Of a stretch of 64,000 nucleotides of DNA, positions 15,801-33,710 are shown piece after piece (position 1 is the first letter of the stretch; the number at the start of each line of letters is the position of its first letter). Both the position numbers and the translations under genes were made by a program. The stretch comes from an uncultured Erysipelotrichaceae bacterium (GTDB lineage: Bacteria; Bacillota_I; Bacilli_A; RFN20; CAG-826). The DNA lies in the NCBI GenBank assembly GCA_902791935.1, contig CADAXQ010000002.1, positions 1 through 64,000 on the forward strand, in the 5' to 3' direction. The notes below the pieces were generated by a model, which saw nothing but the letters and a program-made list of their open reading frames with translations, was not told the DNA's origin and searched no databases.

Positions 15801-15891
15801 CGGTCGCATGCACCGCTTGATCCGATAACGTCGGGGCGATAAGCACACCAAGAAGCAACCAAGGAATACTACGTAAAGCCAATCGTTTCAT
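12871..15891 (-). CDS. Large secreted multi-domain protein with Ig-like modules
   Basis: 1006 residues from the ATG at 15891 (GGAGGTTATCGCA upstream; a possible start 13 codons earlier lacks this). Signal peptide (MKRLALRSIPWLLLGVLIAP...), then repeated beta-rich modules. Two look like lectin/laminin-G-type jelly rolls (about 105-330, with LHFSFQDVEDSSQGFSIVV; and about 640-800, with NGLFLRFHQNGKAITLHV). Several DUF5011/Ig-like modules are marked by the YxIHYESSDRSGN, YHASFSAQDYLGR, YRVEYKVTDRQGN and YRLRYVAYDESYN endings. It has no C-terminal anchor and no recognised catalytic motif. The jelly-roll pair suggests glycan binding. It lies between the permease and DUF4838 genes, with 4-base coupling to the latter. 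Confidence 0.65.
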   Translation of the reverse strand: MKRLALRSIPWLLLGVLIAPTLSDQAVHATAPLPSWVFMGDSVSFPIHILEHEGQKKVAKVRIVAPSGKILTDESFVASEAGRYEVHYQATFGDTLVEETETFLSVRHSSDLFQGNGDISFTNQAIFAYDSGYSGVMTKMNTGGRFTFLKVLDMTSFTQSAPLAQFMVEPSTESSADFETLHFSFQDVEDSSQGFSIVVENGGAINGDGHISYLRAGAFNQALSGYERLGDRVTFHNDGTWGTPLSHTFRGLTKEGISKWGYHPITLYYDASQNALYASAPYGQDSGSTLVVDFDEAKAFPTNPWSGFPSGKATVTVWGEGFHSAANVLWTSLGGYDLSKREQQDTSAPKITVDYGKEDGAPNGVVGMAYPVFKASVFDDYDDGLTIDTYVTYHDERYDAAIRIPIQNGKIQIEKAGSYQIHYESSDRSGNKAEEVVSFTAGEAAQDLTVVVPTFETNGTAFESFTLPSLDALRAENAYGHCNFALTVTDPEGNVMTVKDNTFVPEESGTYHASFSAQDYLGRTATKVMDLTIAPTAKPVFLSAPDLPKAYLTGFHYTLPTMEAVETGNDGKAKAVAVKAYRNDTLDDGSSFEASGENLSIRYEAVGVTGTNTMNLTIPVQDGQGGKVKAQYFYGENATIEEVDESMNMTFSAAGEVTFLRSLSNQNFEVLFRIPDDGLNGLFLRFHQNGKAITLHVHAVDDTYVVTYPNSDREITLTNTAGFFGLSYNALNHSLKDGLGKSIGFPSTYDDGSTIDQLNDQFSFSFGFASLSSSKTLSLTRLSGQPFGHGGNPARAKDRINPIVILANDFAVRQEIGATLTIPSASAYDVLNEVGEVTVSVKNENETLLEETSAAVSHTVTFTKLAKYRVEYKVTDRQGNEDNYFKMIDVAEKEAPTLDVDFNGISSQYHLGDILKLPEATSSDNSGSSYVLAYLLTPKNQTILLFRFGEETTSYVSRLGSEIAVDDMSFRLWEEGTYRLRYVAYDESYNHTAKEVAFTVTKGEAA

Positions 15892-15907
15892 TGCGATAAC
15901 CTCCAGC

Positions 15908-16819
15908 TTATTCTTTGATGCCGCCAACATTGATGTTCGTCATTAAGCGGCGTGAGAAGATGAGGGAAATGAGCAAAATCGGTAAGGTCATCAATAAGAT
16001 GCCTGCCAATTTAACCGGCGTGTAACTAATCTCCGTGACGGTGCTATTTTGGAATAAGAACATGCCATAGGCCGCAACGGGGTGGGATGGTAAATAAACC
16101 ATCGGGATTTGGTAATCGTTCCAAAACGTGACGAAGTTCAGAAGGAATACCGTGAATAACGTGTCTTTCGCCAGCGGAAGAATGACTTGCCAAAGCACAC
16201 GGGTATTACTGGCACCATCGATTTTGGCCGCTTCGCTATAAGCCGCTGGAATCGTCTTAAAGCGGGCATAGAATACCAAGAAGTAAATGCCTAAAAAGTT
16301 TGCCTTCATGAGCCAAATGCCCCAGAACGTGTCGAAGAAATGTAACGTCTTAGACATTTGAATCTCGGAAGGTAACGAGCCAACAATCGGTAGGGACATC
16401 GCCACTAAGACAATCGCATAGACGACTTTGCTAAAGCGGAACGGATAACGAGCGCAAAGATAAGCAACGAGACACGGGGTGATCGTGGCCGCCACGGCAC
16501 AACCCACGGAATACAGAATCGAATTCCAGAAAAGATAAGGCATCGTGTAATGGTACGTTTGGCCATTTCGTTGAATCGGGACATAGAAATTCGTATAAGC
16601 CGTCGCATAGTTCGACCATCGCCATGATGATGGCCAGCCTAAGATATTGTCTAAGATCGTATATTCATCGTTGTCTTTGACAGAGGTTAAGAATGTCCAA
16701 ATAACAGGGATTAGCAAAGATGCCGTATAAAGAAACAAAATCACAAAAATCACAAAGAAGAACCAATCGAATGTTCGTTTCTTCGTGTGACGTTTGGCAA
16801 TTTGAGAATTGGCGTTCAT
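15908..16819 (-). CDS. CUT1-type sugar ABC transporter permease (MalG-like)
   Basis: 303 residues from the ATG at 16819; its ribosome site GAGGTGG lies inside the last codons of the upstream permease gene. Six membrane segments are visible. The EAA loop reads YSEAAKIDGASNTRVLWQVILPLAK, matching the EAAxxDGAxxxxxFxxIxLPxxxP pattern that contacts the ATPase. The length and the C-terminal NVGGIKE ending (compare GGVKG in MalG relatives) mark it as the MalG-type half. With the MalF-like partner it forms the membrane channel for an oligosaccharide. Operon position: third gene. Confidence 0.9.
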   Translation of the reverse strand: MNANSQIAKRHTKKRTFDWFFFVIFVILFLYTASLLIPVIWTFLTSVKDNDEYTILDNILGWPSSWRWSNYATAYTNFYVPIQRNGQTYHYTMPYLFWNSILYSVGCAVAATITPCLVAYLCARYPFRFSKVVYAIVLVAMSLPIVGSLPSEIQMSKTLHFFDTFWGIWLMKANFLGIYFLVFYARFKTIPAAYSEAAKIDGASNTRVLWQVILPLAKDTLFTVFLLNFVTFWNDYQIPMVYLPSHPVAAYGMFLFQNSTVTEISYTPVKLAGILLMTLPILLISLIFSRRLMTNINVGGIKE

Positions 16820-16820
16820 G

Positions 16821-17747
16821 TTATTCCCACCTCTCAATCCATTTCCGGACAGCGTACGTTAAGGGCAATGCGATAAACGTGCAAGCAATGCCTAACGCAG
16901 CAGCATAAGGATACGAAGAAATATCGCTGGGGTTACGGTTCACCAACCAATAAAGGTAATAACCGATCGTGTAGTTCTCAGTGGTGGGAACAGCATTGCC
17001 ATAGAAATCCCATAAGTTCGCCTGATTCATAAATAAACCGGCGACACTCGACAACAAGAACGTGCCGACGGTCGGGAGAATCGAAGGCAAGACAATCGAG
17101 AAGAATTTCCGTGCGGAAGAGGCCCCGTCAAGGTCAGCGGCCTCCATGACACTCGGCGAGATTTGGTTCATGGCGCCGCTATAAAGCAACACCTGTGCCC
17201 CAAATCCAACCCAGACGTTATAGAAGAGAACTGCCCAGAATCGGATATCGGGATTGACAAGCAAGCCTTTGATTTTGGTGTTCGTCCATTCATAAGCCAA
17301 TTCGGGGATAGCCTCATTGGCAAAGAACTTAAACATCGTGGTCAACAAGATAACGGGCAGGATAGAAGGCAAGAACAAAATGAACTTAAAGACAACGCCT
17401 AAGAACCGTTTTTGGTAGATGTAATACGAGAATAACGTGGCAAAGAATGTGCCAAACACCAGGTTACAAACCCAGACAATCAACGAGTTCTTTAAGGCAT
17501 AGAGTAACGTGTAAGACTGGGTTAATTCTTCGCCGATATGGGCAAAGTTTTGGAAGCCAACCCAAGAATAGGTGCCTTCATAGATGTCATAGCTTTTAAA
17601 CGCTAAGAACAAGGAGTTGGCGTTTACCCCGATATAAAAGACGCAGAATTGGAGCATCGGGAATGCCATCAAAGCGACGTAGAAGAGAACGTCTTTCTTG
17701 TCGACGAGACGAGAAGACCTCCGTTTCTTGCTTCTTACGCCTTCCAT
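16821..17747 (-). CDS. CUT1-type sugar ABC transporter permease (MalF-like)
   Basis: 308 residues. A basic N-terminus (KKRRSSRLVDKKD) is followed by six membrane segments starting at about residue 21 (VLFYVALMAFPMLQFCVFYI). The EAA loop is VMEAADLDGASSARKFFSIVLPSILP. It pairs with the MalG-like protein encoded immediately downstream. It follows the binding-protein gene by 14 bases. As in other CUT1 systems it should import an oligosaccharide from the surface lipoprotein into the cytoplasm. The substrate cannot be read from the permease itself. Confidence 0.9.
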   Translation of the reverse strand: MEGVRSKKRRSSRLVDKKDVLFYVALMAFPMLQFCVFYIGVNANSLFLAFKSYDIYEGTYSWVGFQNFAHIGEELTQSYTLLYALKNSLIVWVCNLVFGTFFATLFSYYIYQKRFLGVVFKFILFLPSILPVILLTTMFKFFANEAIPELAYEWTNTKIKGLLVNPDIRFWAVLFYNVWVGFGAQVLLYSGAMNQISPSVMEAADLDGASSARKFFSIVLPSILPTVGTFLLSSVAGLFMNQANLWDFYGNAVPTTENYTIGYYLYWLVNRNPSDISSYPYAAALGIACTFIALPLTYAVRKWIERWE

Positions 17748-17761
17748 GATTTCGTCCTCAA

Positions 17762-19423
17762 TTACTTCAAATTGCTCCAGAACGAGGCGCCATGATAATC
17801 GGCACTGCCTAAGAAATAACTCCGCGCATCGGCTTTATTTTCTTGGAACGCCAAGAACGGATTCGTGTAATCTGTGTGATTGATGGTGGCGGCCCAGTAC
17901 CAGGTGTCGCAAGAGAAATCAGACGGATGGTTGATTTGCTTCACCAAAGAAGAATATGGATAAACAATGTCTGCTGTCTTCTTGAGTTCGCAGATCGATT
18001 TTGCAAACGACGTTAAATTGGCTTGATCAGAAGCGGTGACTTCGTAATTCAAGGCACGGGTTGTCGATGTTTCGGCCGTAAAGGCGCTTAATTCGGCATC
18101 GGTGTTGGTGAATTTCATGAATAACTTGGCTAAATCCAAGTGAGCCGTATTGGCGCTCACAAAGCCAAACGAGCTATTTTGTGAGACATAGGTTTGTTTC
18201 TTTTGGCCAACAGACGCGGGATCCGCAAACGGAATCGGCATCCAGGCGAAGTGACGATCTATTTTCTTAACGCCATAAAGACGTTCCACGGAAGCAAAGG
18301 CACCACTTGCTTCGTTTTCCCACCAAGAACCATCGATTAACATCGCATATTGATCCCGCTTCTTCGAATAACCGGCAATGAAGTTCGTTTGGGCATTCAT
18401 GTGTGAGACTGATCCGGCGTTGATGTCGAAATTGCTGGCGTCGCCAAGCATGATGTCTTTCATGAATTGAAGCGCTTGGTATTTGCCTGGCATCTTTTGC
18501 AATAAATAGCCATTGTCTTCCGTGATGGTAGTATCGGTGGTCGTAAAGGTGCCATCTTCTGCCACATTAGCGATTTTGGCAGTGCCGTTTAACGTATAGT
18601 TCAAGTTCATCGCGTCTTTGCCTTCGTTCGTGGCAAAGAAGTTTAAAATCGCACGCTCCGGATATTGGGACGCGTCCCCGCCGGCATAAGAGAATGGGGT
18701 CATACCGGCCGAACGAATTGCCTTCAATAATTGATTGAATTCGGTATAGGTTGCGGGAAGGCCGTCATCCGAGGTGCCTTTCACTCCATCGGGGCCCGAT
18801 GATTTTTCTTGATCCTTATCGCTAATGATGTTTCCGTCCATGCCGAGATAGAACGATTCTTGGTCAAAGAGGTCTTTGTCATAAACGATGCCTAAGAAGC
18901 CATCGTAGAACGGGACGGCATAGTATTTGTTGTCTTTTGCCGTGAGGTAACTCTTAAAGGCAGGATCCATTTTGTCTTCAATGGTCTTGCTTTCGCCAAA
19001 GTCCGATAAGCTACCAGTGACAACATCCGAGATATCCGCCATCTTGCCACGGTTCAAGAAATCGAAGTAAGAAACTTGTTCCGTAAAATAGATGTCACGT
19101 TCTAGTGTTTTATTTAATAACTGGGCACCCGAGTAGGCATCTTTTTGTCCATCCACACGGACGACAACGCCTTTTTTGCCGGCTTCAAAACTTTGATCGG
19201 CATATTTTTCTTCGAAACGTTTGGCAGCATTGCTTAACCATTGCGTGCCAAAACCACCATCAAACGTGCCGATGGTGAGTAAGGTCTTCGAAGCATCGGC
19301 GCTAGCGTTGTTGCCACCGCTATTGGTGCTATCGTTTACTGGCGTGGAAGCGGGGCTAATGCAACCCGTTAATAAAACCACGGACGAGACTAACGTAGAA
19401 AAAGCGAATAACTTTGTTTTCAT
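17762..19423 (-). CDS. Extracellular sugar-binding lipoprotein (family 1 solute-binding protein)
   Basis: 553 residues, long for the family. Signal peptide with lipobox LTGC (Cys21), a Ser/Asn-rich spacer, then a substrate-binding fold typical of CUT1 systems: KTLLTIGTFDGGFGTQW, RFEEKYAD, YAVPFYDGFLGIVYDKDLF, LPATYTEFNQLLKAI and the MLIDGSWWENEA stretch near the hinge. Start ATG 19423 with AAGGAG upstream. It is the first gene of the ten-gene operon, directly followed by its permeases and preceded by an AraC-type regulator. Large binding proteins of this kind usually take oligosaccharides; the particular sugar is unknown. Confidence 0.9.
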   Translation of the reverse strand: MKTKLFAFSTLVSSVVLLTGCISPASTPVNDSTNSGGNNASADASKTLLTIGTFDGGFGTQWLSNAAKRFEEKYADQSFEAGKKGVVVRVDGQKDAYSGAQLLNKTLERDIYFTEQVSYFDFLNRGKMADISDVVTGSLSDFGESKTIEDKMDPAFKSYLTAKDNKYYAVPFYDGFLGIVYDKDLFDQESFYLGMDGNIISDKDQEKSSGPDGVKGTSDDGLPATYTEFNQLLKAIRSAGMTPFSYAGGDASQYPERAILNFFATNEGKDAMNLNYTLNGTAKIANVAEDGTFTTTDTTITEDNGYLLQKMPGKYQALQFMKDIMLGDASNFDINAGSVSHMNAQTNFIAGYSKKRDQYAMLIDGSWWENEASGAFASVERLYGVKKIDRHFAWMPIPFADPASVGQKKQTYVSQNSSFGFVSANTAHLDLAKLFMKFTNTDAELSAFTAETSTTRALNYEVTASDQANLTSFAKSICELKKTADIVYPYSSLVKQINHPSDFSCDTWYWAATINHTDYTNPFLAFQENKADARSYFLGSADYHGASFWSNLK

Positions 19424-20551: not shown

Positions 20552-21490
20552 TCATTCGTATTTTGCAACTGGCTCCGGATGTGACCACATGAATTTTTCC
20601 AATTCTGCTTTGTTTGCCAATGATGGAATGGCACCATGTTTAAGGGTAGTGAGAGCGCCCATTGCGTTCGCGGTGCGCAAAATATCAATTTCGTTCTTGT
20701 TCTCCATTAACGCTTTGATGAAAGCGCCATTAAACGAATCACCTGCAGCAACCGTGTCCACCGCTTGAACCGAATACGCGCCCACAAAAAGAGAACGTTT
20801 AGCATTTACCCACAAAGAACCGCGATCGCCCAAGGTACAAATTACATTTTGGACACCGCGTTGAAGCAAAGATTGAGCCGCTGCTCTTACCTGTTCTATG
20901 GTTTCCGTAGCGTGACCACTAAGCCGTGCAAGTTCTGTTTCGTTCGGTGTAAGGTAATCGATTTTAGATAAAACTTCGTCACGGAACGGGCGGCAAGGGG
21001 CGGGATTGACTACCGTAATTAATCCGTGCCGTTTTGCTAGCAGAATAGCCTCATCTGTCATCTCTGGATTCATTTCACCTTGCGTTAAAAACACATCGTT
21101 TGAAGCGATTGTCGTCTCTTCTCGATACAGGTCATCAATCGTGTATTCCAAGTTAGCCCCCAAAATGATGCAAATGCGATTTTGTCCTTGGCCATTAATT
21201 TGAACACTGGATACTCCTGTTGCTTGCGTTTTGCTTTTTAGAATGTGTCCTTCAATGTTTTCGGCTTGGAGTAATTGAACAAAACGATCCCCGAAAGCAT
21301 CGTTACCAACTTCTCCAAGCATGGTTACTTTTGCTCCAAGACGGGTCAAAGAAACTGCCTGATTTGCCCCTTTTCCTCCCATGAATTGTTGAAAACGAGT
21401 ACCAACTACACTTTCTCCAGCTTCAGGAAAACGGTCCATCGTTGCCACTAAGTCCGTGACAAAGGATCCTAGCACCAATACGCGATTCAT
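20552..21490 (-). CDS. Ribokinase (PfkB family), candidate D-arabinose kinase
   Basis: 312 residues with all ribokinase landmarks: N-terminal GSFVTDLVATMDRFPEAGE, the sugar-binding GGKGANQAVSLTRLG (38-52), NPAPCRPF (162-169), TPNETE (181-186), and the anion-hole/base motif DTVAAGDSFNGAF with catalytic Asp251. The normal reaction is phosphorylation of D-ribose on O5. Ribokinases can also take D-arabinose, giving D-arabinose 5-phosphate. It overlaps the upstream isomerase gene by four bases (ATGA), so the two are translated together. With the KdsD-type isomerase this suggests the route D-arabinose to D-arabinose 5-phosphate to D-ribulose 5-phosphate. Family is certain; substrate is inferred from context. 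It is the last gene of the operon. Confidence 0.9.
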   Translation of the reverse strand: MNRVLVLGSFVTDLVATMDRFPEAGESVVGTRFQQFMGGKGANQAVSLTRLGAKVTMLGEVGNDAFGDRFVQLLQAENIEGHILKSKTQATGVSSVQINGQGQNRICIILGANLEYTIDDLYREETTIASNDVFLTQGEMNPEMTDEAILLAKRHGLITVVNPAPCRPFRDEVLSKIDYLTPNETELARLSGHATETIEQVRAAAQSLLQRGVQNVICTLGDRGSLWVNAKRSLFVGAYSVQAVDTVAAGDSFNGAFIKALMENKNEIDILRTANAMGALTTLKHGAIPSLANKAELEKFMWSHPEPVAKYE

Positions 21491-22092
21491 TTTTGCTGAA
21501 GCTCCTTCTTTAACGATTCTCCTAACGCACCATTAGGGTGAAATTTGAAGAAATCTTCTTTCGTGAACCCATATGACTCTGATAGCGTCAATGCAATAGC
21601 GTCGCCTAATACAAGCGCAACCGTAGAAGAGTTGGAGGGAGCTAAATCATTGCGATCTGCTTCATGTGTGCAACGATATAAAATTCGATAAGAACAAGCC
21701 TTCGCTAAAGGAGAATTTTCTCGTGAGGTAAAAGCAACCAAAGTAGCACCAATGCGCTGCAATGGAACAATGTTTTGAATGACTTCTTTGGTGGAACCGC
21801 TATTGGAAATTAAAATCACAATATCTTTGCTTTCAATCATTCCTAAATCCCCATGGCAGGCTTCGGTACCATGAACAAAGAACGATGGCGTGCCGGTTGA
21901 TGAAAACGTTGCTGCTAATTTTTTGGCAATATGAGCAGACTTCCCAACACCCAAAAATATCACCTTACCTTGCCGGTGGCGGATTAATTCCACGACACGG
22001 TCGAGTTCCTCTTCGTGCAATCCCGTTTCCATTTCTTGGATGGCGGTTGTCTCTTCCTCAATGACTCGACGAATGCTTTCTTGATAATTCAT
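21487..22092 (-). CDS. SIS-domain arabinose-5-phosphate isomerase-like protein (KdsD/GutQ type, no CBS domains)
   Basis: 201 residues. The SIS domain closely follows KdsD/GutQ: GVGKSAHIAKKLAATF (48-63), STGTPSFFVH (65-74), EACHGDLGM (77-85) and SNSGSTKEV (96-104). These enzymes interconvert D-arabinose 5-phosphate and D-ribulose 5-phosphate. The E. coli enzymes carry a C-terminal CBS pair, which is missing here. In Gram-negative bacteria the product feeds Kdo synthesis for LPS. This organism has no visible LPS genes, and the gene is coupled to ribokinase in a glycan-import operon, so the catabolic direction is more likely. Start ATG 22092. An isomerase for another phosphosugar cannot be excluded. 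Confidence 0.85.
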   Translation of the reverse strand: MNYQESIRRVIEEETTAIQEMETGLHEEELDRVVELIRHRQGKVIFLGVGKSAHIAKKLAATFSSTGTPSFFVHGTEACHGDLGMIESKDIVILISNSGSTKEVIQNIVPLQRIGATLVAFTSRENSPLAKACSYRILYRCTHEADRNDLAPSNSSTVALVLGDAIALTLSESYGFTKEDFFKFHPNGALGESLKKELQQK

Positions 22093-22103
22093 ATCTATCC
22101 TCC

Positions 22104-23330
22104 CTAACGAAACGCAACCTCATAAAGAGATGTGTTATAAATTGGTGACCACTGTGACACTTGCAAATACACTTTCTGTCCGTGATTCCTCATCAAAAGA
22201 GGCGAGAGAAAGCCACCATAAAATTGCGGACATTCTTTTGCTGTAAGGATTAGATAGGATTCGCGGAAAGGGCCTTGAAAATCTTTCGCGTGATAGAGTT
22301 TCAAGCCTTCAAGCGAAATCATGGAAATCAACCACTCCCCTAGATATTCGTCATAAGCGATACTGGGTTCACTAGCATTCACCCCTGGCAAAATGGAATA
22401 AGGTAACTGCTGCCGACATTCTTTTATTGGAACATAACAGTCTTTTTTCATTAAGACTTCATAAGCATCGATATTTTCAATTTCATCTCGTTTTACGCGT
22501 AAAAGAGAAAGTTGGCCAAATCTTCCGCCGGGGATTGCCAATAAATGGATGTATGGCGATGAAGGTGAAGAAAGGAATGGAAATAATTGACCTGCAAAAG
22601 GATAATCCGCTTCAGAAAAAGACAACCCCGTTTTTTGAAATTCATCTAAATGATGGATGTCCGCTTTCCATAATGCATTTTCCGTTACGAACCACTCACC
22701 CGGTTTTCCCCAATAACGAACCGACATACCATAGACATAAAGAGACGAGCCCACTTGAATGCCGCCAGTAGGAATCTTTGTGATCTCTTTTTTGTTTTGA
22801 ATATCTAAGTTGTTTGGCAAATTCTCATCGTGTTGGCCTTGGAATAAAGGTTTAACTTTGCCATTGCTTCCAGTTACTAAACGAGAAAAATACATGCCCT
22901 TTTCCCAGTTTTGAAAATCGGCAAGTGCCATGAAATTGCTATTCCAGGTTCCTTGATTTACGTCTGGACCGCTAAAGGAATCGCCATATAGAAAAGCGAT
23001 TTCATCTCCTAAATCCACGGGAATGCCTAAATCCGTAGATCCTACACCCGCCTCGTTCATCAATCGTTCATTGAAGCCGCTTTTACCAGTGATTTTTCCA
23101 ATTTTTGTCACCGACACAACGTGCGCAGGGTCTAAAGTGAAAGATTCGTCTTCAGGAACGCTTACCAATAAATGAACACATTCTTTCTCGGCGTCAATCG
23201 CATAATCTAACACCGTATTTGGCAAGCCAAAATGCGTTTTACGATATTCAACGTTGCAATGATAATCGGCTAGCTTTTTCCGAGCTTCGGACAAAGGCAG
23301 TCCAACAGGATTAGGCACTGGAATTCGCAT
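22104..23330 (-). CDS. PASTA-GH183 (DUF4185) protein without signal peptide; candidate intracellular endo-D-arabinanase
   Basis: 408 residues. Residues 4-60 form a PASTA-like module (VPNPVGLPLSEARKKLADYH...HLLVSVP). The rest is a DUF4185 domain, a family now classed as GH183 with endo-D-arabinanase members. Conserved stretches shared with the upstream paralogue are STDLGIP (Asp100), LYGDSFSG (Asp117), NSNFMALA, TKIPTGGI, MSVRYWG and IPGGR; the two Asp are candidate catalytic residues. The start (ATG 23330, AAGGAGA upstream) lies just after the previous stop, so no signal peptide can be added. It is therefore predicted to act in the cytoplasm on imported oligosaccharides. A PASTA module, normally extracellular, is unusual there. 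Confidence 0.75.
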   Translation of the reverse strand: MRIPVPNPVGLPLSEARKKLADYHCNVEYRKTHFGLPNTVLDYAIDAEKECVHLLVSVPEDESFTLDPAHVVSVTKIGKITGKSGFNERLMNEAGVGSTDLGIPVDLGDEIAFLYGDSFSGPDVNQGTWNSNFMALADFQNWEKGMYFSRLVTGSNGKVKPLFQGQHDENLPNNLDIQNKKEITKIPTGGIQVGSSLYVYGMSVRYWGKPGEWFVTENALWKADIHHLDEFQKTGLSFSEADYPFAGQLFPFLSSPSSPYIHLLAIPGGRFGQLSLLRVKRDEIENIDAYEVLMKKDCYVPIKECRQQLPYSILPGVNASEPSIAYDEYLGEWLISMISLEGLKLYHAKDFQGPFRESYLILTAKECPQFYGGFLSPLLMRNHGQKVYLQVSQWSPIYNTSLYEVAFR

Positions 23331-23342
23331 TTTTTCTTCTCC

Positions 23343-24680
23343 TTAGCGATCTGTCAAAACGACTTCCATGAGGAAGGTATTGTAAATGGGGGTCCAACGT
23401 GATAATTGCAAATACATCCGTTGGCCTTCGCTATCCATAAAGGCGGAATGAACGAAACCACCATACAAGCCCGGATATTCCGTAGAGGAACAAATCGCGT
23501 GGCTTTCACGATATGGTCCCGTAATCGTTGGGCTAAGTAACATCGAAATCGATGAGCCGCGCAATGTGATAATGACGTATTGCTGAAGGTATTCACTCCA
23601 AGTCATCGAAAGCTCACTTGCGGCTGGATCGATGATGTAATACGGATTAGCATTTAATTTACTCATGCCCGTATCGCCTTTTTCCCATTGATTAGGTCCA
23701 ACAAGGTATTCGTATTCGGAACGATTTTCGAAAGATGAGGTTGCTACGCGCATCATGACGGCACCATCATTTCGACCGCCCGGGATGGTGATGAAATAAA
23801 TATGTTCTTGGTCATTCGGATCTTGATAAGGATAGATTTGGCCTCCAAACCGGAATTCCGACTCATTCCAGCGTAATGATTCGACAGGCTCCCAAGTTTG
23901 ATAGGTGTTATCCGCGGCTTTTAGTGCTTGATTGTAAGTAACAAGCCAAGAGCCACCTACGCCCCAATAACGAATTGACATATAAAAGATGTAGGCATTG
24001 CCGTTGACTGAAATGCCACCAGTCGGAATCTTGGTGACTTCCTTTGTCAAGTCATCTTCGCTACCGCTTTGATGTGCTCCTTGGGCAAAAGGCTTAAGCA
24101 TTCCGTTATCTTGCGTTACAACAGAATCAAACGTAATACCGTCATAAAACGTAGTATCAGAAGTGATAGCCATGTAGTTGGAGAACCACATGCCACTCAT
24201 GTTGTCTCCCGAGAAAGTATCGCCATAAAGAAGCATCATCCGGTTATCGGGAAGACGAAACGGAATGCCTAGGTCACAACCATACTCGCCTGCCGCAGAC
24301 AGCATTTCTCCGTTGATAGAATCGGGGCCAGTCTCTTTGGCGATAATGTTGTGATACGCAATGATAGAGTCGTCATTTGCTGTTGCTTCTTTGCTTCGCT
24401 GACTAACTTGGACGGGGACGCGTGTCCCTTTCGAAACCATGTCCCCCGCTTTTAAGCCGTCTCCATAAGAAAGGATCCGCCCCTCAATCAACTCGGTTGT
24501 TGGAGTTTGAATTTCTTCAAACAAGAAGGAGGCTCCTACTTGTAGTTTCGCTTGGCGTACGCTGAGGCCATAAAGATCGGGAAGCACCACTTTCTCTGCG
24601 TTTTGCTGCGCACCGCAGCTAACAAGTGACAGCGCAAGAAGCGTTCCAAAAACCGGCCAGTAAACGTGTTTATTTTTCAT
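23343..24680 (-). CDS. PASTA-GH183 (DUF4185) lipoprotein; candidate surface endo-D-arabinanase
   Basis: 445 residues. Signal peptide with lipobox LVSC (Cys22), one PASTA module (about 32-95, VLPDLYGLSVRQAKLQVGAS...GTRVPVQVS), then DUF4185/GH183 with CDLGIP (Asp136), LYGDTFSG (Asp154), WFSNYMAI, TKIPTGGI, MSIRYWG and IPGGRND. Only published GH183 enzymes are known to me as endo-acting on the D-arabinan of mycobacterial arabinogalactan and lipoarabinomannan. Tethered to the outer face of the membrane, this copy would make the first cuts, while PASTA may bind peptidoglycan, either its own wall or that of the prey. Its paralogue, without export signal, follows after 12 bases. Start ATG 24680 with AAAGGAGG. 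Confidence 0.8.
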   Translation of the reverse strand: MKNKHVYWPVFGTLLALSLVSCGAQQNAEKVVLPDLYGLSVRQAKLQVGASFLFEEIQTPTTELIEGRILSYGDGLKAGDMVSKGTRVPVQVSQRSKEATANDDSIIAYHNIIAKETGPDSINGEMLSAAGEYGCDLGIPFRLPDNRMMLLYGDTFSGDNMSGMWFSNYMAITSDTTFYDGITFDSVVTQDNGMLKPFAQGAHQSGSEDDLTKEVTKIPTGGISVNGNAYIFYMSIRYWGVGGSWLVTYNQALKAADNTYQTWEPVESLRWNESEFRFGGQIYPYQDPNDQEHIYFITIPGGRNDGAVMMRVATSSFENRSEYEYLVGPNQWEKGDTGMSKLNANPYYIIDPAASELSMTWSEYLQQYVIITLRGSSISMLLSPTITGPYRESHAICSSTEYPGLYGGFVHSAFMDSEGQRMYLQLSRWTPIYNTFLMEVVLTDR

Positions 24681-24712: not shown

Positions 24713-26761
24713 TTATTTCGCTTTCTTTTTCTTAATGATTAAAGGAATTGCTACGGCTAACCCCACGACGACAATTGCGCCAATGACAATGCCAATAATG
24801 GCACCGACGCTTAATCCGCCTTTTTTATTGTCATCTGGTGTCACTGGTTCGCCTTTTGTAACGGTCACGACGATAGAACCGCTAACACCATTGGAAGTCT
24901 GCGCTTTAATTTCAGCCGTTCCCTCTGCTAAAGCAGTCACAAGTCCAGTCGAACTCACTGAGGCAACCGTCCCATTGGAAGATGACCAAGTAATGGCTTT
25001 ATCATCGGCATCATTCGGCGTAACCGTGGCGCTTAATTGCTTCGTCCCGCCGATAGACAATTCAACATCGCCACCGGCAATCTCGACTTTCGTTACCGCC
25101 GTAGTAAACGGAGCCTCCGAAAGGAAATGCAACTCCACATTGTCGATGCTCAATGTATCGCCAACGGCATGGGGCGTGAAGAGCCAGCGAATGGAATTCC
25201 ACTGCACCTTGTCCGAAGTCACTTCGAAATCCAATGTAACGCGTGTATATCCGTTAGATAACGCCTCCGTGTGGATCGGATAAGAAGCTTTTTCAGCGCC
25301 ACTGGTGCTGGTATAGGTCTCATCCCGGCCTAATTTAGTCAAATCAATCTTGTAATAAGGAACGTTCGCCCCGCCGACAAAACAAGAGTTCAACTCTGCA
25401 TAAGAATCGAACGAATCGCTTGCCGTGACTTTATAGTCATAACGGAAACGAACGATATCCCCGATGGAAATGTCGTCTGGTGTCATTAAGAACATCGAAC
25501 TGTACGTTTTCGTTTGGGTATCATCAAGCTTGCCAATTTGGGCAACTTTTGAACCGCCATCTTCAGCAATTCTGGCTCCGTTATCATAAGAAGTAACGCT
25601 TCCCCAAGCTCCTTCTAATTGATCTTCGCTAAATTTTGTGCCAACTTCGAACTTCTCGAAGTCGCCATTCACCACGTAATTTTTGCTTTCGTAGTAAGTT
25701 TTAGAAGGATCGTAGCTTGAGGTATAGGCCGCTCTAACGACAATGCCGTCAATCACCACTGCGGTTGTGCCACTATATTCCAGCTGTATTTTCGCAATCG
25801 AGGCGTTTCCAGCTAATTGGGCACTATATTTTCCATCTTGATAAGCAGAATCTACAACGCCGTCTTTAATCAAATCCAAAGCAGAAACGCTATTGCCTGA
25901 TTCGTCTAAGAAATTGAATTTTAAAGACGTGCCGCTAGCGATTGTCAATTCTTTGACGGAAACGTCAATTTGATACGTTTTTTCCGTTAATGAAGTGATA
26001 ACGCCATAATAACCGCCATCCGTCAGCGAAACACCGCCTTTTACTAACGTAGCATTATGGCCGTATAAGCCATCTTCTCCTGCCGTTTCTGGGATAGTGC
26101 TCGGGGCATAATCCAAAAATCCTTCAAAGTCACCGCCCGTAAAAATATTCGTGCCAGACGTCTGACTAACAGCAGAAATGTTGTCTAAATAAAGATCGCC
26201 ATTTGCGACGTTAGCCCAAATGTGGGCAGAGTCGTAGCTCTTGCTAGCATCGAACGTTCTAGCCCACGCAACATGTTTCCAGCCATTGGCTTTATCCGTG
26301 ACGGTGGCGCCAGCACTTGTCAAATCGCTGCTGCTCAATACATTGACTTCGGGCAAACGATTGCTATCGGTGGTGCACCAAAACGCCATGCCGATGTTAT
26401 CGGTTCCATTAGGAGCGTAGTAGTCGAACGAAATGTCGTATGTCTCGCCAGAAACAATGCTTAACATGGCATACATGGAACTAAAGCCAGCGCCGTCATA
26501 AGTCTTAAAGGCTAGAACTGTATTGTTCTCGTCTGTGGGATCAGTAACAGCATATTGTGTTGCCTCAGCGTTGCCCCAGTTATGCCAAATAGAAGCAGAA
26601 CCAGGTCCGCCGCCAGCGGGAATTTTATATTCGCCAGCACTTAAGGCGAAATCACCGTTCGGGAAGAGGTTCGCGCCATAGAAAACGCTGCCAGCGTGTT
26701 GCGGCATCGCGACATTACCGACTAACGCGAGTAATGCCAAACTAAGTAAACATCCTTTCAT
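24713..26761 (-). CDS. Surface protein with three CBM-like jelly-roll domains, a BIG2 domain and a C-terminal anchor
   Basis: 682 residues. Signal peptide, then three modules of about 150-190 residues of the CBM4/9/22-like type, recognisable by openings such as NLFPNGDF, NIFTGGDFEGF and NYVVNGDFEKF and by the closing LYLDNIS, VVIDGIV and LSIDNVELHF. Next come a BIG2 Ig-like domain (VELSIGGTKQLSATVTPNDADDKAITWSSS, shortened here), a KKGGLSVGAIIGIVIG membrane segment and a lysine tail (KKKKAK). No LPXTG is present. It should hold a polysaccharide at the cell surface next to the GH183 lipoprotein. Start ATG 26761 with AAGGAGGTAA. The ligand (arabinan) is inferred from the operon only. Confidence 0.75.
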   Translation of the reverse strand: MKGCLLSLALLALVGNVAMPQHAGSVFYGANLFPNGDFALSAGEYKIPAGGGPGSASIWHNWGNAEATQYAVTDPTDENNTVLAFKTYDGAGFSSMYAMLSIVSGETYDISFDYYAPNGTDNIGMAFWCTTDSNRLPEVNVLSSSDLTSAGATVTDKANGWKHVAWARTFDASKSYDSAHIWANVANGDLYLDNISAVSQTSGTNIFTGGDFEGFLDYAPSTIPETAGEDGLYGHNATLVKGGVSLTDGGYYGVITSLTEKTYQIDVSVKELTIASGTSLKFNFLDESGNSVSALDLIKDGVVDSAYQDGKYSAQLAGNASIAKIQLEYSGTTAVVIDGIVVRAAYTSSYDPSKTYYESKNYVVNGDFEKFEVGTKFSEDQLEGAWGSVTSYDNGARIAEDGGSKVAQIGKLDDTQTKTYSSMFLMTPDDISIGDIVRFRYDYKVTASDSFDSYAELNSCFVGGANVPYYKIDLTKLGRDETYTSTSGAEKASYPIHTEALSNGYTRVTLDFEVTSDKVQWNSIRWLFTPHAVGDTLSIDNVELHFLSEAPFTTAVTKVEIAGGDVELSIGGTKQLSATVTPNDADDKAITWSSSNGTVASVSSTGLVTALAEGTAEIKAQTSNGVSGSIVVTVTKGEPVTPDDNKKGGLSVGAIIGIVIGAIVVVGLAVAIPLIIKKKKAK

Positions 26762-26781: not shown

Positions 26782-27843
26782 TCATTTGGGCTGATGAGGG
26801 ATGGGGAGCCGCTTTTCTACCGCAAGGATAGGTTCCTTCCATTCCGCTGGCCTGGCGGTATAGAAGTAAGCAGTCGAGCTCCAATCATCCGAACGATGAT
26901 TGTCGTGACCATGCTCTAACGTCACACGAATGCTCGTCCGGAAAGAAATCGGATCCATGATGTGGTATCGGTAATAGGTGATTTTCCCTTTCCAATTGGG
27001 GTCACCAGGCAAAATAATCCCGTGATAAGGGGCGTTATATTCCTGGGTTGGGCACCATGCCGAATTGAAATAATCTTCTGTACCAGTTCCGTTAATGGTT
27101 GGTATCGGGTCGCCGTCAATGAAAATCATGTCGTCACCTTCGCCCGGCCAATCCCAGCTATCGCAATCGCTTAAATTCTCAATATCTAAATGGCAACCAC
27201 AATAATGTCCTTCCCCTTTTAAATCCAGCAAAACATAGTTGTTCTTGCCATCTAAATTTTTGCCTTCGAATAAGAATGCTTCACGAGAAGGAAATTGATG
27301 ATAGTCCAGCCCTTTCGTGGGACATTCACGTTTCCAATACGCGCCAAAATAAAGAATGTCGTCGTCGAAAGTGCGTTCTTCGTAATCAATGTAGTAATAA
27401 AGCATCAGCCCGGTGTCACATTCATTGACTACTTCAATGCGTGCAGCTTTGCGGAAAGGCATCGGCCACCAACAATTCAAGGCTCTGCCATCTTCTGGCG
27501 AACGTTGAATCGGTTCGCTAACAAAATTTCGGCTAGCGGCATGGCCCAAGCCAAAGAAATCGCCTAAGGGGACCAATACGCTGGGATACTGTGCATCTTC
27601 CCAATAAAACTTCAGATAAACCTTTCGAAAAGCATTTTCTTCTAGGATGTCTCCTTCGTTCATCTGCGTCATCCAAATGTGTTCAATCAGTCCCGAACAA
27701 TGCACATTGAAAATGACGCGAGACTCCTTTGGCTGAATATGAATGCGGTCGTCGTTCCCTCCGGTTCGATCGTAAGAAGAGACGCGTTTGCGAATGCCTC
27801 CATCTTTCCAAAAAATGTTGGATAAATTGTGTCCTTGAAACAT
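26782..27843 (-). CDS. GH172 (DUF2961) glycoside hydrolase; candidate exo-D-arabinofuranosidase
   Basis: 353 residues without signal peptide. The DUF2961 hallmarks are LGDFFGLGH (93-101), NCWWPMPFRKAARIEV (123-138), YYYIDYE (149-155), WPGEGDD (232-238) and NGTGTEDYFNSAW (251-263). GH172 includes difructose-dianhydride/alpha-D-fructofuranosidases and exo-acting D-arabinofuranosidases. Glu235 and Glu256 are 21 residues apart. As I recall, the catalytic pair of the founding Bifidobacterium enzyme (Glu270/Glu291) has the same spacing, so the active site looks intact. Cytoplasmic location implies that it trims oligosaccharides after import to free D-arabinose (or D-fructose). It lies one base after the permease gene in the middle of the operon, which makes it a core part of the pathway. 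Confidence 0.88.
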   Translation of the reverse strand: MFQGHNLSNIFWKDGGIRKRVSSYDRTGGNDDRIHIQPKESRVIFNVHCSGLIEHIWMTQMNEGDILEENAFRKVYLKFYWEDAQYPSVLVPLGDFFGLGHAASRNFVSEPIQRSPEDGRALNCWWPMPFRKAARIEVVNECDTGLMLYYYIDYEERTFDDDILYFGAYWKRECPTKGLDYHQFPSREAFLFEGKNLDGKNNYVLLDLKGEGHYCGCHLDIENLSDCDSWDWPGEGDDMIFIDGDPIPTINGTGTEDYFNSAWCPTQEYNAPYHGIILPGDPNWKGKITYYRYHIMDPISFRTSIRVTLEHGHDNHRSDDWSSTAYFYTARPAEWKEPILAVEKRLPIPHQPK

Positions 27844-27844
27844 G

Positions 27845-28723
27845 TTATTTCACCCCCGTAAGGCTGATACCTTCTTTGATAAAACGTTGAATCACGGCAA
27901 ACACCACTACGGCTGGAATTAAGCTAATAAATGCTGCTGCTAATACCGCCCCATAGCCTAACGTCGACGCTTCATTAAACAAGCGATTGATCAACGTCAT
28001 AATTTGGGTATACTGCGCATGATTGCTATCGATGGTCAGCGTGGGCCAAAGATAAGAGTTGTAATAGCCCATAAATGTCCCAGCGCCCATAATCACCATC
28101 GGCGTCGCGCTATTGGGAAGATAAATGCGGAAATAAATAGCGATGGAATCGCATCCGTCAACACGGGCCGCTTCATCGTAATCTTTCGGAAATCCAAGAT
28201 AGGCTTGTCGGAAAAAGAAAATGTTATATGCACTGGCTAATCCCGGCACGATTAAAACCCAAATGGTATTCATCATGCCCATGGCCGCAACAACGCTAAT
28301 GGAAGTCAGAAGAATAGTGATTCCCGGGATAAACATGGTCGCCATCACAATGATCCATAAGACTTTTTTGCCTGGGAATTGAAGTCGAGCGAACGCATAA
28401 CCCGCAATCGAATTGATAAAGAGAGATAAGAGGGTAGCAATGGCCGCCACCAATAACGTCATCCCAAACGAAGCAAAGAAATTGACCCCAATGGTGGTGT
28501 ATTGCAAATAGAAAAGTCGGGAGAAATTATCCGTCGACCACACTTGTGGAAATACGTGGAAGTCCAAAGTAAAAATTTCGTTCTTGTTTTTAAACATGGA
28601 GATAAGTCCGAAGAACAACGGGATTGCGATATTTAAAAGAACGATGACTGCAATCACATAGAGAAGAATCGTGATGGCAATCTGCCCGCCGGTTTTCTTT
28701 TTCTGTCTACCGTAAGAGCTCAT
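27845..28723 (-). CDS. CUT1-type sugar ABC transporter permease (MalG-like)
   Basis: 292 residues, six membrane segments beginning at about residue 15. The EAA loop is YDEAARVDGCDSIAIYFRIYLPNSATP and the C-terminal ISLTGVK ending is typical of MalG relatives. It overlaps the start of the partner permease gene by four bases (ATGA), so the two are co-translated. No ATPase gene lies in this operon. The pair must borrow one, either a shared MsmX/MalK-type protein elsewhere or the short MalK-like ATPase of the neighbouring operon. Predicted cargo: short D-arabinan oligosaccharides. Confidence 0.9.
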   Translation of the reverse strand: MSSYGRQKKKTGGQIAITILLYVIAVIVLLNIAIPLFFGLISMFKNKNEIFTLDFHVFPQVWSTDNFSRLFYLQYTTIGVNFFASFGMTLLVAAIATLLSLFINSIAGYAFARLQFPGKKVLWIIVMATMFIPGITILLTSISVVAAMGMMNTIWVLIVPGLASAYNIFFFRQAYLGFPKDYDEAARVDGCDSIAIYFRIYLPNSATPMVIMGAGTFMGYYNSYLWPTLTIDSNHAQYTQIMTLINRLFNEASTLGYGAVLAAAFISLIPAVVVFAVIQRFIKEGISLTGVK

Positions 28724-29634
28724 CGTTTCTTCTCCTTTCGGTTCGTGACGCAGAAAACAACGGCGTTGATGGCGCCAATGACAATCATGATGACAATGCT
28801 TGCCGCAATAATCTGTGACTGAGGAACATTGCCATTGGCTCTAGCGTGAATTAAATAAAGCACTGGGGTCATTGTCTTATTGAGCGGTTGCCCGTTCGTC
28901 ATCAGCATCGGAATCTCAAACATTTGTAACGATCCCGTTACCAATGTCACAATGGTTAAAACGAAATAGTTTTTTAAAGACGGAAGTACCAGATAAAAGG
29001 TAGTGTTCCAAAAGCTTGCCCCATCCACTGCCATCGCTTCATAAAGACTTCTTGGAATATTGATGAGACCAGAGTAGAAAATCAAAGTAGTATAGCCGCC
29101 GCCAACCCAGATTGTCGGAACGATGATGGCAACATAAGCCCAGAACGTTGAGCCGGTAAATGAAATTGGGTCAGCGTTCATCTTTCCTAAAATTCCGTTA
29201 ATAACACCGCCGTTGTAGTAAGTCAGAAGTGTGAAGATACAAGCAACAACAATGCCAGAAAATAGATAGGGAAGATAAATAATCGTACGAACGAAAACGC
29301 CAAATTTATTTTTCATCCGCACCAGGATATTCGCGAAGAAGAACGATCCGACAACTTGTAAGAGGACAATAAACAAAGTCATGATGCAGACATTTGCCAA
29401 TGACCGCAAGAAAGATTCATCTTGGAAAACTCGAATGTAATTCTGAAATCCAGCGAATACCGCTTCATTCGGACCTGATTCGTAATAGAAGAACGAGCGA
29501 TAGATGGAGAGAATCAATGGCACCAGCACAAAAATGGTGAGCAAAATGAAGGCCGGCGCTATCAAAATAAGCCCCGAAACTTTCTCTTCAGTCTTTCGAT
29601 TTCTTAACGATTGATAAAGAGATGCTTTCGCCAT
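28720..29634 (-). CDS. CUT1-type sugar ABC transporter permease (MalF-like)
   Basis: 304 residues. A cytoplasmic basic N-terminus (SLRNRKTEEK) is followed by six membrane segments; the EAA loop reads YEAMAVDGASFWNTTFYLVLPSLKN. The second residue pair of the EAA signature is slightly altered (EAM for EAA), while the DGA core is kept. The gene follows the binding lipoprotein by two bases and overlaps the MalG-like gene. Together they form the import channel of the presumed D-arabinan system. Confidence 0.9.
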   Translation of the reverse strand: MAKASLYQSLRNRKTEEKVSGLILIAPAFILLTIFVLVPLILSIYRSFFYYESGPNEAVFAGFQNYIRVFQDESFLRSLANVCIMTLFIVLLQVVGSFFFANILVRMKNKFGVFVRTIIYLPYLFSGIVVACIFTLLTYYNGGVINGILGKMNADPISFTGSTFWAYVAIIVPTIWVGGGYTTLIFYSGLINIPRSLYEAMAVDGASFWNTTFYLVLPSLKNYFVLTIVTLVTGSLQMFEIPMLMTNGQPLNKTMTPVLYLIHARANGNVPQSQIIAASIVIMIVIGAINAVVFCVTNRKEKKR

Positions 29635-29636
29635 GG

Positions 29637-30998
29637 TTATAACCTGGGATTAGTTCCGGCGGTGGCGCAAAGTCCTTGTACCGTAGAATCGCATTTCTTA
29701 ACGGCGGTTGGAATATCATTGCCCATCGCCGCTTCTTCCAAAAGCCCTTCTACAGCAACGGAGATATTCCAATCATAAATGGGTTCAAGAATCGCTTTTC
29801 CAGCAACATCATTGATGGTTTCAACCCATTCTTGAGGAACATCATTTTGTTTCTGATAATCTTGTGCCAAGATAGCCTGTACGGATTTTCGAGGCGAATA
29901 TTTTGAATAATGAGCACGTTCAAAGTAATCCACGGCTTGAGCAGTATCTTCTGCCGTTAACCAGCGAATGACTTTTGCTGCGGCTTCCACATGCTTGCAT
30001 TCGGAAGAAATGACGTAGCACCAGCCACCATTGGTCGCTGTTGTTAGACTCTTATCACCGCTAAAAGTAGGCATCGGCACGAATCCAATGTTGTCTTTTT
30101 GATCAGGGTATTGATTCAAAACGGTAGAAATTGACCACGAGCCACAGGTGGCCATGACGCTCTTTCCGTCAGCAACATCAAAAACAGCTTCGGTATAGTC
30201 ACCGCTAGATAACGGAACGTATCCATTTCCGTATAAATCACGCCATAATTCAGCTAATTTTGTATAGCCAGGATCAGTAATTCGCGATGCGGTCCAATCA
30301 TCGGTGACGGCTAATCCGCCAGTGGCCGCTTGTTGCATGCCCCAACTCCCCCAAGCGCAAGCAACGCCGGTTGGCACAGAGAAAGGATAAACATTTTTAA
30401 CGCCTGCGCTACGAAGGGCGCTACGAATCGTGCCGCATAAATTCAAAAGCTCATCCCAGGTTTCGGGAGTTTTGGCATCTGCTCCAGCGTATTTGGTCAA
30501 TAGGTCTTTCCGATAGGCCAAAATTGTCGAAGGCTCCATCAAAATCGGATAGGCATAATACTTGCCGCCATAATTGACGGCCGTTTTTGCCATATCTGTT
30601 AAATCGTTCCAGGAATCATCGCTGAAATATTGCGTAATATCGATGGCACGACCAGCTTTAATTTCCTTATATAGATTTCCATAGCTTACCATATAGATAT
30701 CAGGCACATTCCCAGATTCATAACGAGAACGAATAAGATCGTCAAAATCGTTTTTGTTAATGTATGTCTGTTCAAGCTGAATGCCGTCAGTAAGATTAGA
30801 GTTGAATTTCTTGCGCTGGGAAATGTTGATCCGGTTCTCCCACTCCTCGAAATCCATCATCCACATGGAAACGGTCGTGGCATTTTCTTCCACTTTCTCC
30901 GCTTCGCTATCAATCACAATATCATCAGGTGGAGTACAAGATGCTAAGGCGGCTAATAGCACAAAAAACGAAGAAAACAAAAAGCGTTGTTGTTTCAT
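29637..30998 (-). CDS. Extracellular sugar-binding lipoprotein (family 1 solute-binding protein)
   Basis: 453 residues. Signal peptide with lipobox LASC (Cys21). Family features include VSMWMMDFEEWENRI, DLIRSRYESGNVPDIYMVSYG, YYAYPILMEPSTILAYRKDLL, TPETWDELLNLCG, MATCGSWSI and a C-terminal helix bundle. This is the usual cargo receptor for a CUT1 importer and it heads the nine-gene operon. Start: ATG 30998 with GAGGAAATT upstream. The promoter region between it and the AraC gene contains a CcpA-type site, so expression is probably repressed by preferred sugars and controlled by the AraC protein. Confidence 0.9.
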   Translation of the reverse strand: MKQQRFLFSSFFVLLAALASCTPPDDIVIDSEAEKVEENATTVSMWMMDFEEWENRINISQRKKFNSNLTDGIQLEQTYINKNDFDDLIRSRYESGNVPDIYMVSYGNLYKEIKAGRAIDITQYFSDDSWNDLTDMAKTAVNYGGKYYAYPILMEPSTILAYRKDLLTKYAGADAKTPETWDELLNLCGTIRSALRSAGVKNVYPFSVPTGVACAWGSWGMQQAATGGLAVTDDWTASRITDPGYTKLAELWRDLYGNGYVPLSSGDYTEAVFDVADGKSVMATCGSWSISTVLNQYPDQKDNIGFVPMPTFSGDKSLTTATNGGWCYVISSECKHVEAAAKVIRWLTAEDTAQAVDYFERAHYSKYSPRKSVQAILAQDYQKQNDVPQEWVETINDVAGKAILEPIYDWNISVAVEGLLEEAAMGNDIPTAVKKCDSTVQGLCATAGTNPRL

Positions 30999-31158: not shown

Positions 31159-32022
31159 TTATAACTTTTTTTGAATTTTATATTCGGTAGGATAGCGACC
31201 ATCCAATGTATGGAACCACCGCGAAAACGTTTGCGGTTCTTTAAAACCAAGCTGTTCAGCGATTTCTTTGATGGACTTAAAAGAATTGCGTAACAAGTTC
31301 TTCGCGTAAGTTAAACGGAGGTGGTCGTAATATTTCTTAGGCGTCGTGTGATAGGCGCGCTTAAACATATCATTAATCGCCCACGCCGAAAGATTCGTCT
31401 TAAGCATGAAATCACGAATCGTTAAATTTGACTGTAAGTTCTCACTCATATAATGCACAAGCAAGGTAATCACATCGCAGCCTTCGGAATCGTCACTATA
31501 CCCTAGATTGTCACTGACAATTGCGGCAATCATCCCTTTAAGATCTGCTTCCATGCGCAATTCTTTCATTGGATCATTAAAGGTGTAGGCGTTGATTAAA
31601 TCGAGCAATAAACCGCGAATTCGTTCAGGACGTGCAGGATGATAGACATAAGGCAGATGTATACCGTGCTCCAAAAAATAATTTGGGCGAAATTGGCTTA
31701 GTTCTTCTGGCGTCATGTCCGCTTTTTCTTTCATAGAAACGCGGATTTTTTCGCTTTGCTCATCGCGGTTAAAATCAAAATGGACATGAGGCTGGCAACA
31801 GTTTTCGTGATACCAAGTAATCCGATGATGGACATCGGGCGGAATAACCACCACATCCCCTTCTTTCACGATATCTGTCTCGGTTGGGAATTCGATTTTC
31901 ATCTGCCCTTTATCGATATAAATAATTTCAAAGTCAAAAATAGATCGAGAGATGTAATAATCGCTCAACCACGTGTGATACATTGCCAAACGGATATAGG
32001 GATGAAAATCGAGCTGTTGCAT
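31159..32022 (-). CDS. AraC-family transcriptional regulator
   Basis: 287 residues. N-terminal cupin-like sensor (SRSIFDFEIIYIDKGQMKIEF, VKEGDVVVIPPDVHHRITWY) and C-terminal AraC/XylS DNA-binding region (LTIRDFMLKTNLSAWAINDMF; SIKEIAEQLGFKEPQTFSRWF; ending YPTEYK). It lies immediately upstream of the nine-gene glycan operon in the same direction, 160 bases away, and is its likely regulator. Only 26% or so of its length resembles the first AraC protein by eye, so the two probably answer to different sugars. The ATG at 32022 has no ribosome site and a TATAAT box ends 11 bases before it, pointing to a leaderless message. Confidence 0.9.
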   Translation of the reverse strand: MQQLDFHPYIRLAMYHTWLSDYYISRSIFDFEIIYIDKGQMKIEFPTETDIVKEGDVVVIPPDVHHRITWYHENCCQPHVHFDFNRDEQSEKIRVSMKEKADMTPEELSQFRPNYFLEHGIHLPYVYHPARPERIRGLLLDLINAYTFNDPMKELRMEADLKGMIAAIVSDNLGYSDDSEGCDVITLLVHYMSENLQSNLTIRDFMLKTNLSAWAINDMFKRAYHTTPKKYYDHLRLTYAKNLLRNSFKSIKEIAEQLGFKEPQTFSRWFHTLDGRYPTEYKIQKKL

Positions 32023-33624: not shown

Positions 33625-33650
33625 TACTTATTCCTTTAACCTCTGGGCAA

Positions 33651-33659
33651 ATTATAGCA
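33651..33659 (-). promoter_or_regulatory. Extended -10 promoter of the restriction endonuclease gene
   Basis: Minus-strand TGCTATAAT (TATAAT at 33651-33656), directly after the T-tract of the preceding terminator and about 27 bases before the GTG start. It allows the nuclease to be transcribed separately from the methyltransferase. Confidence 0.65.
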
Positions 33660-33660
33660 A

Positions 33661-33698
33661 AAACAAAAGAGGCCTGTGTTTGAATGGCACAAGCCTCT
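33661..33698 (-). terminator. Intrinsic terminator between methyltransferase and endonuclease genes
   Basis: Minus-strand stem of 6 + 4 bp with one mismatch (AGAGGC...GCCTCT core, 33668-33673 with 33693-33698), 9-base loop, followed by TTTTGTTTTT. It begins 13 bases after the methyltransferase stop. Confidence 0.8.
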
Positions 33699-33710
33699 CG
33701 CACCAATAAT

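Follow-up and report, generated by a model that had tools for sequence, protein, structure and literature searches.

A surface PASTA-GH183 lipoprotein and its cytosolic paralogue in apparently peptidoglycan-free Bacilli: a probable division of labour in D-arabinan utilisation

The window, i.e. the whole stretch of 64,000 nucleotides analysed here, carries two adjacent genes of the GH183 family, one for a surface lipoprotein and one for a cytosolic enzyme. The pair probably reflects a division of labour in D-arabinan utilisation (we give this reading a probability of about 0.75), the cytosolic copy having arisen by tandem duplication and inherited its PASTA module. The GH183 family consists of endo-D-arabinanases and the GH172 family of exo-alpha-D-arabinofuranosidases (PMC10509167).

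Both genes are on the minus strand. The upstream one (23343..24680) encodes a 445-residue surface lipoprotein composed of a PASTA module and a DUF4185 domain (PF13810, E 9e-55; AF2 pLDDT 91.7), with a hydrophobic N-terminus and a lipobox (LVSC, with Cys22). The second gene (22104..23330) starts 12 bases downstream and encodes a 408-residue protein without signal, in which a truncated PASTA-like module precedes DUF4185 (PF13810, E 4e-47; AF2 pLDDT 93). In the Pfam search, the DUF4185 matches in the two proteins score 161.3 and 186.5 bits, compared to a cut-off of 39.5. Inspection of the N-terminus of the 408-residue protein revealed neither a hydrophobic stretch nor a lipobox. The gene junction reads TAA GGA GAA GAA AAA ATG: the in-frame TAA of the lipoprotein gene is followed by a GGAG ribosome site (23339..23345, minus strand), about 8 nt before the ATG of the 408-residue gene. 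A signal peptide is impossible for this protein since the lipoprotein's own TAA closes the frame upstream. Judged by its sequence, it is a cytosolic paralogue of the surface lipoprotein. The initial annotation had described the neighbours in this way, as paralogues of which one is a lipoprotein and the other cannot have a signal peptide, and both statements hold. We discarded an assembly artefact, a start-site artefact or a chance arrangement because the same pair is found in six genomes of four genera.

Indeed, the pair is present in 6 of the 196 genomes of the host family, including that of the window, and a search of 279 genomes of the order brought to light just two others, whose GH183s are more distant. 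In all six, the second copy has no signal and lies directly behind its lipoprotein paralogue (there are two lipoproteins in G182). In the tree of catalytic domains, the six cytosolic copies form one clade (100/100), sister to the lipoproteins of the family (100/99; joint node 100/98), and this joint group nests inside the PASTA-lipoprotein GH183s found across the class. The topology therefore indicates that a PASTA-lipoprotein ancestor was duplicated in tandem once and that the export signal was lost once. Within the cytosolic clade, the end branch of the window's copy is the longest (1.11 changes per column versus 0.05–0.67).

Elsewhere in the class, cytosolic GH183s free of PASTA stand beside exported ones (345 residues in G317, about 375 in G251 and G095), and the arrangement of one enzyme at the surface and one in the cytosol is therefore recurrent. 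G095 and G251, which belong to the host family, have a different D-arabinan locus (L094 and L097), in which several divergent GH183s stand in tandem, at least one of them lacking a signal, together with GH172, a kinase and a SIS isomerase. The D-arabinan operon of the window is absent from all the listed congeners of its genome, and present in only 6 of the 196 family genomes; given this sporadic spread, it has been gained by transfer or often lost.

By sequence, both proteins belong to the D-arabinanase family GH183/DUF4185 and retain the catalytic Asp pair, and endo-D-arabinanase activity is predicted for both. In the cytosolic enzyme the nucleophile would be Asp100 (23031..23033, minus strand; Asp33 of EndoMA1) and the acid/base Asp117 (22980..22982, minus strand; Asp51 of EndoMA1), both of which are invariant in 19 sequences. 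The positions that match Asp33, Asp51, Trp138, Arg198, Glu243 and Tyr293 of EndoMA1, residues whose roles are taken from PMC10509167, are invariant in both clades (the two Asp and the essential Glu243 in the 19 sequences), and those that match Pro141 and Leu292 are variable. The AF2 model of the 408-residue protein, to which this comparison is confined, is a five-bladed propeller that matches EndoMA1 (8hhv) with a VIA Z of 40.8 and 2.0 Å over 314 residues, and AraH2 (8an0) with a VIA Z of 23.3. Several residues that are invariant in the lipoproteins are altered in the cytosolic clade, e.g., those at positions 217 and 273 (position 273 lies three residues beyond the sugar-holding Arg270), which makes a shifted product or substrate preference of the cytosolic GH183 plausible. 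The dN/dS of the cytosolic catalytic domain is 0.086.

The Pfam PASTA model is called in neither protein of the window at E<=1. Searching the whole genome with PF03793 gives a sole match, the lipoprotein module (residues 30–97; 24390..24593, minus strand), with 15.1 bits for a cut-off of 23.2 and over model positions 1–63. The orthologous lipoprotein modules of G467 and G470 score above the cut-off (27.8 and 24.8 bits). A single-sequence phmmer search of the module against the PDB returned a chance match only; with a profile of 12 lipoprotein modules, the best five matches, all PDB structures, are the PASTA domains of PknB and of the staphylococcal kinase (E 2.3e-5 to 0.005). Because the orthologues pass the cut-off and the family profile matches PASTA structures of the PknB/PrkC type, sequence comparison identifies the lipoprotein module as a divergent PASTA.

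The module of the cytosolic enzyme (residues 3–60; 23151..23324, minus strand) has no match to PF03793 in the window's copy at E<=1; its best orthologue reaches 16.8 bits, over positions 3–47 only, and the profile of the cytosolic modules has no significant PASTA match in the PDB. When it is aligned with the lipoprotein modules, however, the hhalign probability is 97.7%, and all six cytosolic copies outscore 2000 shuffled sequences. At the level of profile comparison, the cytosolic module thus demonstrably descends from the PASTA module of the lipoprotein. In each of the six copies the last hairpin ('GD..xKG..V', also written '..GD.v.kG..V') is short by about 7 residues. The initial annotation had placed an N-terminal PASTA in both proteins: PASTA descent in both is borne out, but not a direct Pfam call, and the cytosolic module is truncated.

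Structure prediction, which had been named as a way to examine the two modules, was applied to both proteins. AF2 predicts with high confidence that the cytosolic module has one helix and three strands, in the order of a PASTA domain, but the short strand 81–83 of the lipoprotein has no counterpart in the cytosolic model. The fold search with the 408-residue model spanned residues 64–408, the propeller filling the match list, so that no PASTA chain is listed and the search is uninformative on the module. The pTM of this model is 0.91, which suggests that the module packs firmly against the catalytic domain.

The two modules seem to be under different constraints. In one close pair, the dN/dS of the module is 0.132 for the cytosolic form and 0.009 for the lipoprotein, and the mean identity among cytosolic copies is 30% in the module versus 48% in the catalytic domain. 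These values hint, on the thin evidence of that one close pair, at a strongly constrained lipoprotein PASTA and a more weakly constrained cytosolic module. The dN/dS of the latter, again from one close pair only, is nevertheless well below 1, and the module therefore does something, at least structurally. Two clade-specific residues, Pro4 and Asn7, are fixed in it. On the other hand, the module is unnecessary for a cytosolic role, since the cytosolic GH183s found elsewhere in the class are without it.

The host family seems not to synthesise peptidoglycan. The transpeptidase/PBP domain (PF00905) is absent in the seven genomes tested; the window's genome lacks the Mur ligase (PF08245), for which weak matches occur in three others. 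FtsW/RodA/SpoVE (PF01098) reaches the cut-off in one of 57 family genomes, which is not that of the window. The control profiles in this search behaved as expected. A published survey predicted that several such families of uncultured Bacilli are peptidoglycan-deficient (PMC10868615), and the lineage appears, from its gene content, to be wall-less. If so, the PASTA module of the lipoprotein cannot sense or serve the cell's own wall. An attractive idea is that it holds foreign wall material, in which arabinogalactan is bound covalently to peptidoglycan.

The pair belongs to an operon on the minus strand. This operon is headed by an AraC-family regulator (31159..32022; PF12833), followed by the solute-binding lipoprotein of an ABC importer (SBP_bac_8, 29637..30998; PF13416, E 8e-31) and two ABC sugar permeases (28720..29634, a multi-TM sequence, and 27845..28723, PF00528). 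Then come a GH172/DUF2961 protein without signal peptide (26782..27843; PF11175, E 1e-78), by its family a predicted cytosolic exo-alpha-D-arabinofuranosidase, and a membrane-anchored surface protein with Big_2 and a C-terminal TM segment (24713..26761; PF02368), which may bind D-arabinan. Behind the pair lie a SIS sugar-phosphate isomerase (21487..22092), KpsF/GutQ/KdsD-like but without CBS domains, and a PfkB/ribokinase-like kinase (20552..21490; TIGR02152, 309 bits for a cut-off of 299.7), the putative D-arabinose-5-phosphate isomerase and D-arabinose kinase, respectively. The isomerase matches TIGR00393 with E 4e-56, below that model's full-length cut-off. The order AraC–SBP–permeases–GH172–Big–lipoprotein GH183–cytosolic GH183–SIS–PfkB is kept in G057, G089, G120, G177 and G182. 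In G467 a locus of this kind, with the same gene order, encodes three PASTA lipoproteins but no cytosolic GH183; the cytosolic copy is therefore not obligatory.

The hallmark set of the Gram-positive D-arabinan locus, namely GH183, GH172, an ABC importer and a sugar kinase and isomerase, is thus present. GH116 (PF04685) has no match over the cut-off in nine genomes whose completeness is 92–98%, which leaves room for a missed gene in any one of them. One weak PF04685 match elsewhere in the genome, a 743-residue ORF, was set aside as it looks by eye like an alpha-L-rhamnosidase.

Other genes of the window lie on either side of the operon. Immediately upstream of it, the gene for a Sau3AI/MutH-type restriction endonuclease neighbours that for a C5 cytosine methylase (32143–34970, minus strand). 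A second carbohydrate locus (10985–19423, minus strand) encodes a 553-residue solute-binding-like lipoprotein without Pfam match, two permeases, a 1019-residue Ig-like surface protein and a 629-residue DUF4838 protein. Lastly, a 967-residue protein has eight Listeria-Bacteroides (InlB-like) repeats (5854–8757, minus strand).

We propose that the surface PASTA-GH183 lipoprotein would cut foreign D-arabinan, probably that in actinobacterial arabinogalactan or lipoarabinomannan, into oligosaccharides that would enter through the ABC importer. The cytosolic GH183 and GH172 would then degrade these to D-arabinose. KdsD, GutQ and KpsF interconvert D-arabinose 5-phosphate and D-ribulose 5-phosphate (PMC11591822), and the kinase and isomerase fit a phosphorylation-first route, in which the kinase, whose specificity we infer, would convert D-arabinose into D-arabinose 5-phosphate and the SIS isomerase would convert the latter into D-ribulose 5-phosphate. 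The gene for the cytosolic enzyme would be a tandem copy of the lipoprotein gene that no longer encodes the signal peptide or the lipobox. The truncated PASTA of this enzyme would be an inheritance that is now mainly structural or vestigial, presumably binds no ligand and is no wall sensor.

The fate of this module is where other readings come in. It could have kept or changed its ligand (imported arabinan on wall fragments, another sugar or a phosphate) and steer the cytosolic enzyme: all six copies have kept it through a long divergence, with a dN/dS below 1, a confident alpha-beta-beta-beta unit is predicted by AF2, and the new residues Pro4 and Asn7 are fixed. We consider this unlikely, considering the loss of the canonical hairpin in every copy, the low identity of the module relative to the catalytic domain, the related cytosolic GH183s that do without it and a host family that apparently makes no peptidoglycan. 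In addition, the substrates of such ABC importers are oligosaccharides and not arabinan-peptidoglycan conjugates. The initial annotation had considered a working binder of peptidoglycan or muropeptides, which the lost hairpin, the weaker constraint and the apparent lack of peptidoglycan in the host speak against. It had also considered that the module recognises arabinan taken up while still attached to pieces of wall; a gene duplicated in tandem that then lost its signal is a simpler account of a PASTA in the cytoplasm. A further, improbable reading is that the cytosolic GH183 replaces the GH116 step, acting on beta-capped or branched ends of the imported D-arabino-oligosaccharides with changed subsites, and that the reduced PASTA is an intracellular carbohydrate-binding or allosteric module; if true, this would be the first case of a domain derived from PASTA that functions in the cytosol of a peptidoglycan-free bacterium.

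Other alternatives concern the location or the existence of the second enzyme. The GH183s characterised to date are secreted or have an extracellular activity (PMC10509167, PMC10115798), and the 408-residue protein might likewise reach the outside, by a path that needs no signal or through lysis, so that both enzymes act there. However, none of the six orthologues has a hydrophobic N-terminus, which points to selection against, or a relaxed need for, export, and the protein is co-encoded with a cytosolic GH172, an isomerase and a kinase, which makes export quite improbable. Decay of a functionless duplicate would agree with the long end branch of the window's copy and with a constraint weaker than in the lipoprotein, but it is very improbable for a gene that is intact in six genomes of four genera, has its own ribosome site, keeps all catalytic residues and shows such a low catalytic-domain dN/dS. 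Finally, in the window the lipoprotein's TAA and the ATG behind it share one frame, and reading through this single stop would give one two-domain surface fusion protein. This is nearly refuted: in the relatives inspected the ATG is out of the lipoprotein frame and has its own upstream in-frame stop, so that read-through is not conserved, and a good ribosome site precedes the 408-residue gene.

A division of labour between surface and cytosol would have several consequences. The conserved cytosolic GH183 branch would add an intracellular endo-type step to D-arabinan use, while the published GH183s work extracellularly or on the cell wall. On apparently peptidoglycan-free bacteria, the peptidoglycan-binding domain of a PASTA-GH183 could only hold foreign wall material. 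The two proteins are a natural pair that differs in location and PASTA integrity, and offer a test of what PASTA adds to a glycoside hydrolase. D-arabinan is a sugar polymer of mycobacteria-type cell walls, and new D-arabinanases would be useful for the analysis of the mycobacterial wall.

The closest known system is the locus of Microbacterium arabinogalactanolyticum (PMC10509167), which also groups GH183s, GH172, an SBP_bac_8-type ABC importer, an isomerase and a kinase in one cluster, with an exported endo-enzyme and a cytosolic GH172. The model proposed for Microbacterium is cutting outside the cell, import, and completion inside by GH172 and GH116 (PMC10509167). The characterised GH183s of M. 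arabinogalactanolyticum have signal sequences, and its GH172 and GH116 are intracellular, whereas here one GH183 is cytosolic and GH116 was not found in the genomes searched. Its GH183s have a C-terminal CBM-like domain in place of the PASTA modules seen here; the kinase here is ribokinase-like and the isomerase KpsF/GutQ-like. Like EndoMA1 (8hhv/8ic1) and AraH2 (8an0), the enzymes of the window have the catalytic Asp pair and the sugar-binding Trp, Arg, Glu and Tyr, and the 408-residue one, as modelled, has the five-bladed beta-propeller fold. Their identity to EndoMA1 is 23–24%, and they differ from it by the N-terminal PASTA-derived module and, for the 408-residue copy, by the lack of a signal peptide.

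Mycosynbacter amalyticus, an epibiont of Gordonia from a different phylum, similarly has a lipoprotein endo-enzyme of GH183 outside and a non-secreted GH172 inside, and its authors proposed oligosaccharide import, but no cytosolic GH183 is described (PMC10115798). The lipoprotein module profile matches the PASTA domains of PknB/PrkC (2kui, 3m9g, 3py9) along almost their full length (E 2e-5 to 5e-3); here, however, PASTA occurs as a single copy joined to a glycoside hydrolase, no peptidoglycan synthesis is detected in the host, and the cytosolic derivative has lost the last hairpin. A Gram-positive D-arabinan locus was thus already known; the novelty lies in a conserved cytosolic branch of GH183 together with PASTA-GH183 lipoproteins in apparently peptidoglycan-free bacteria.
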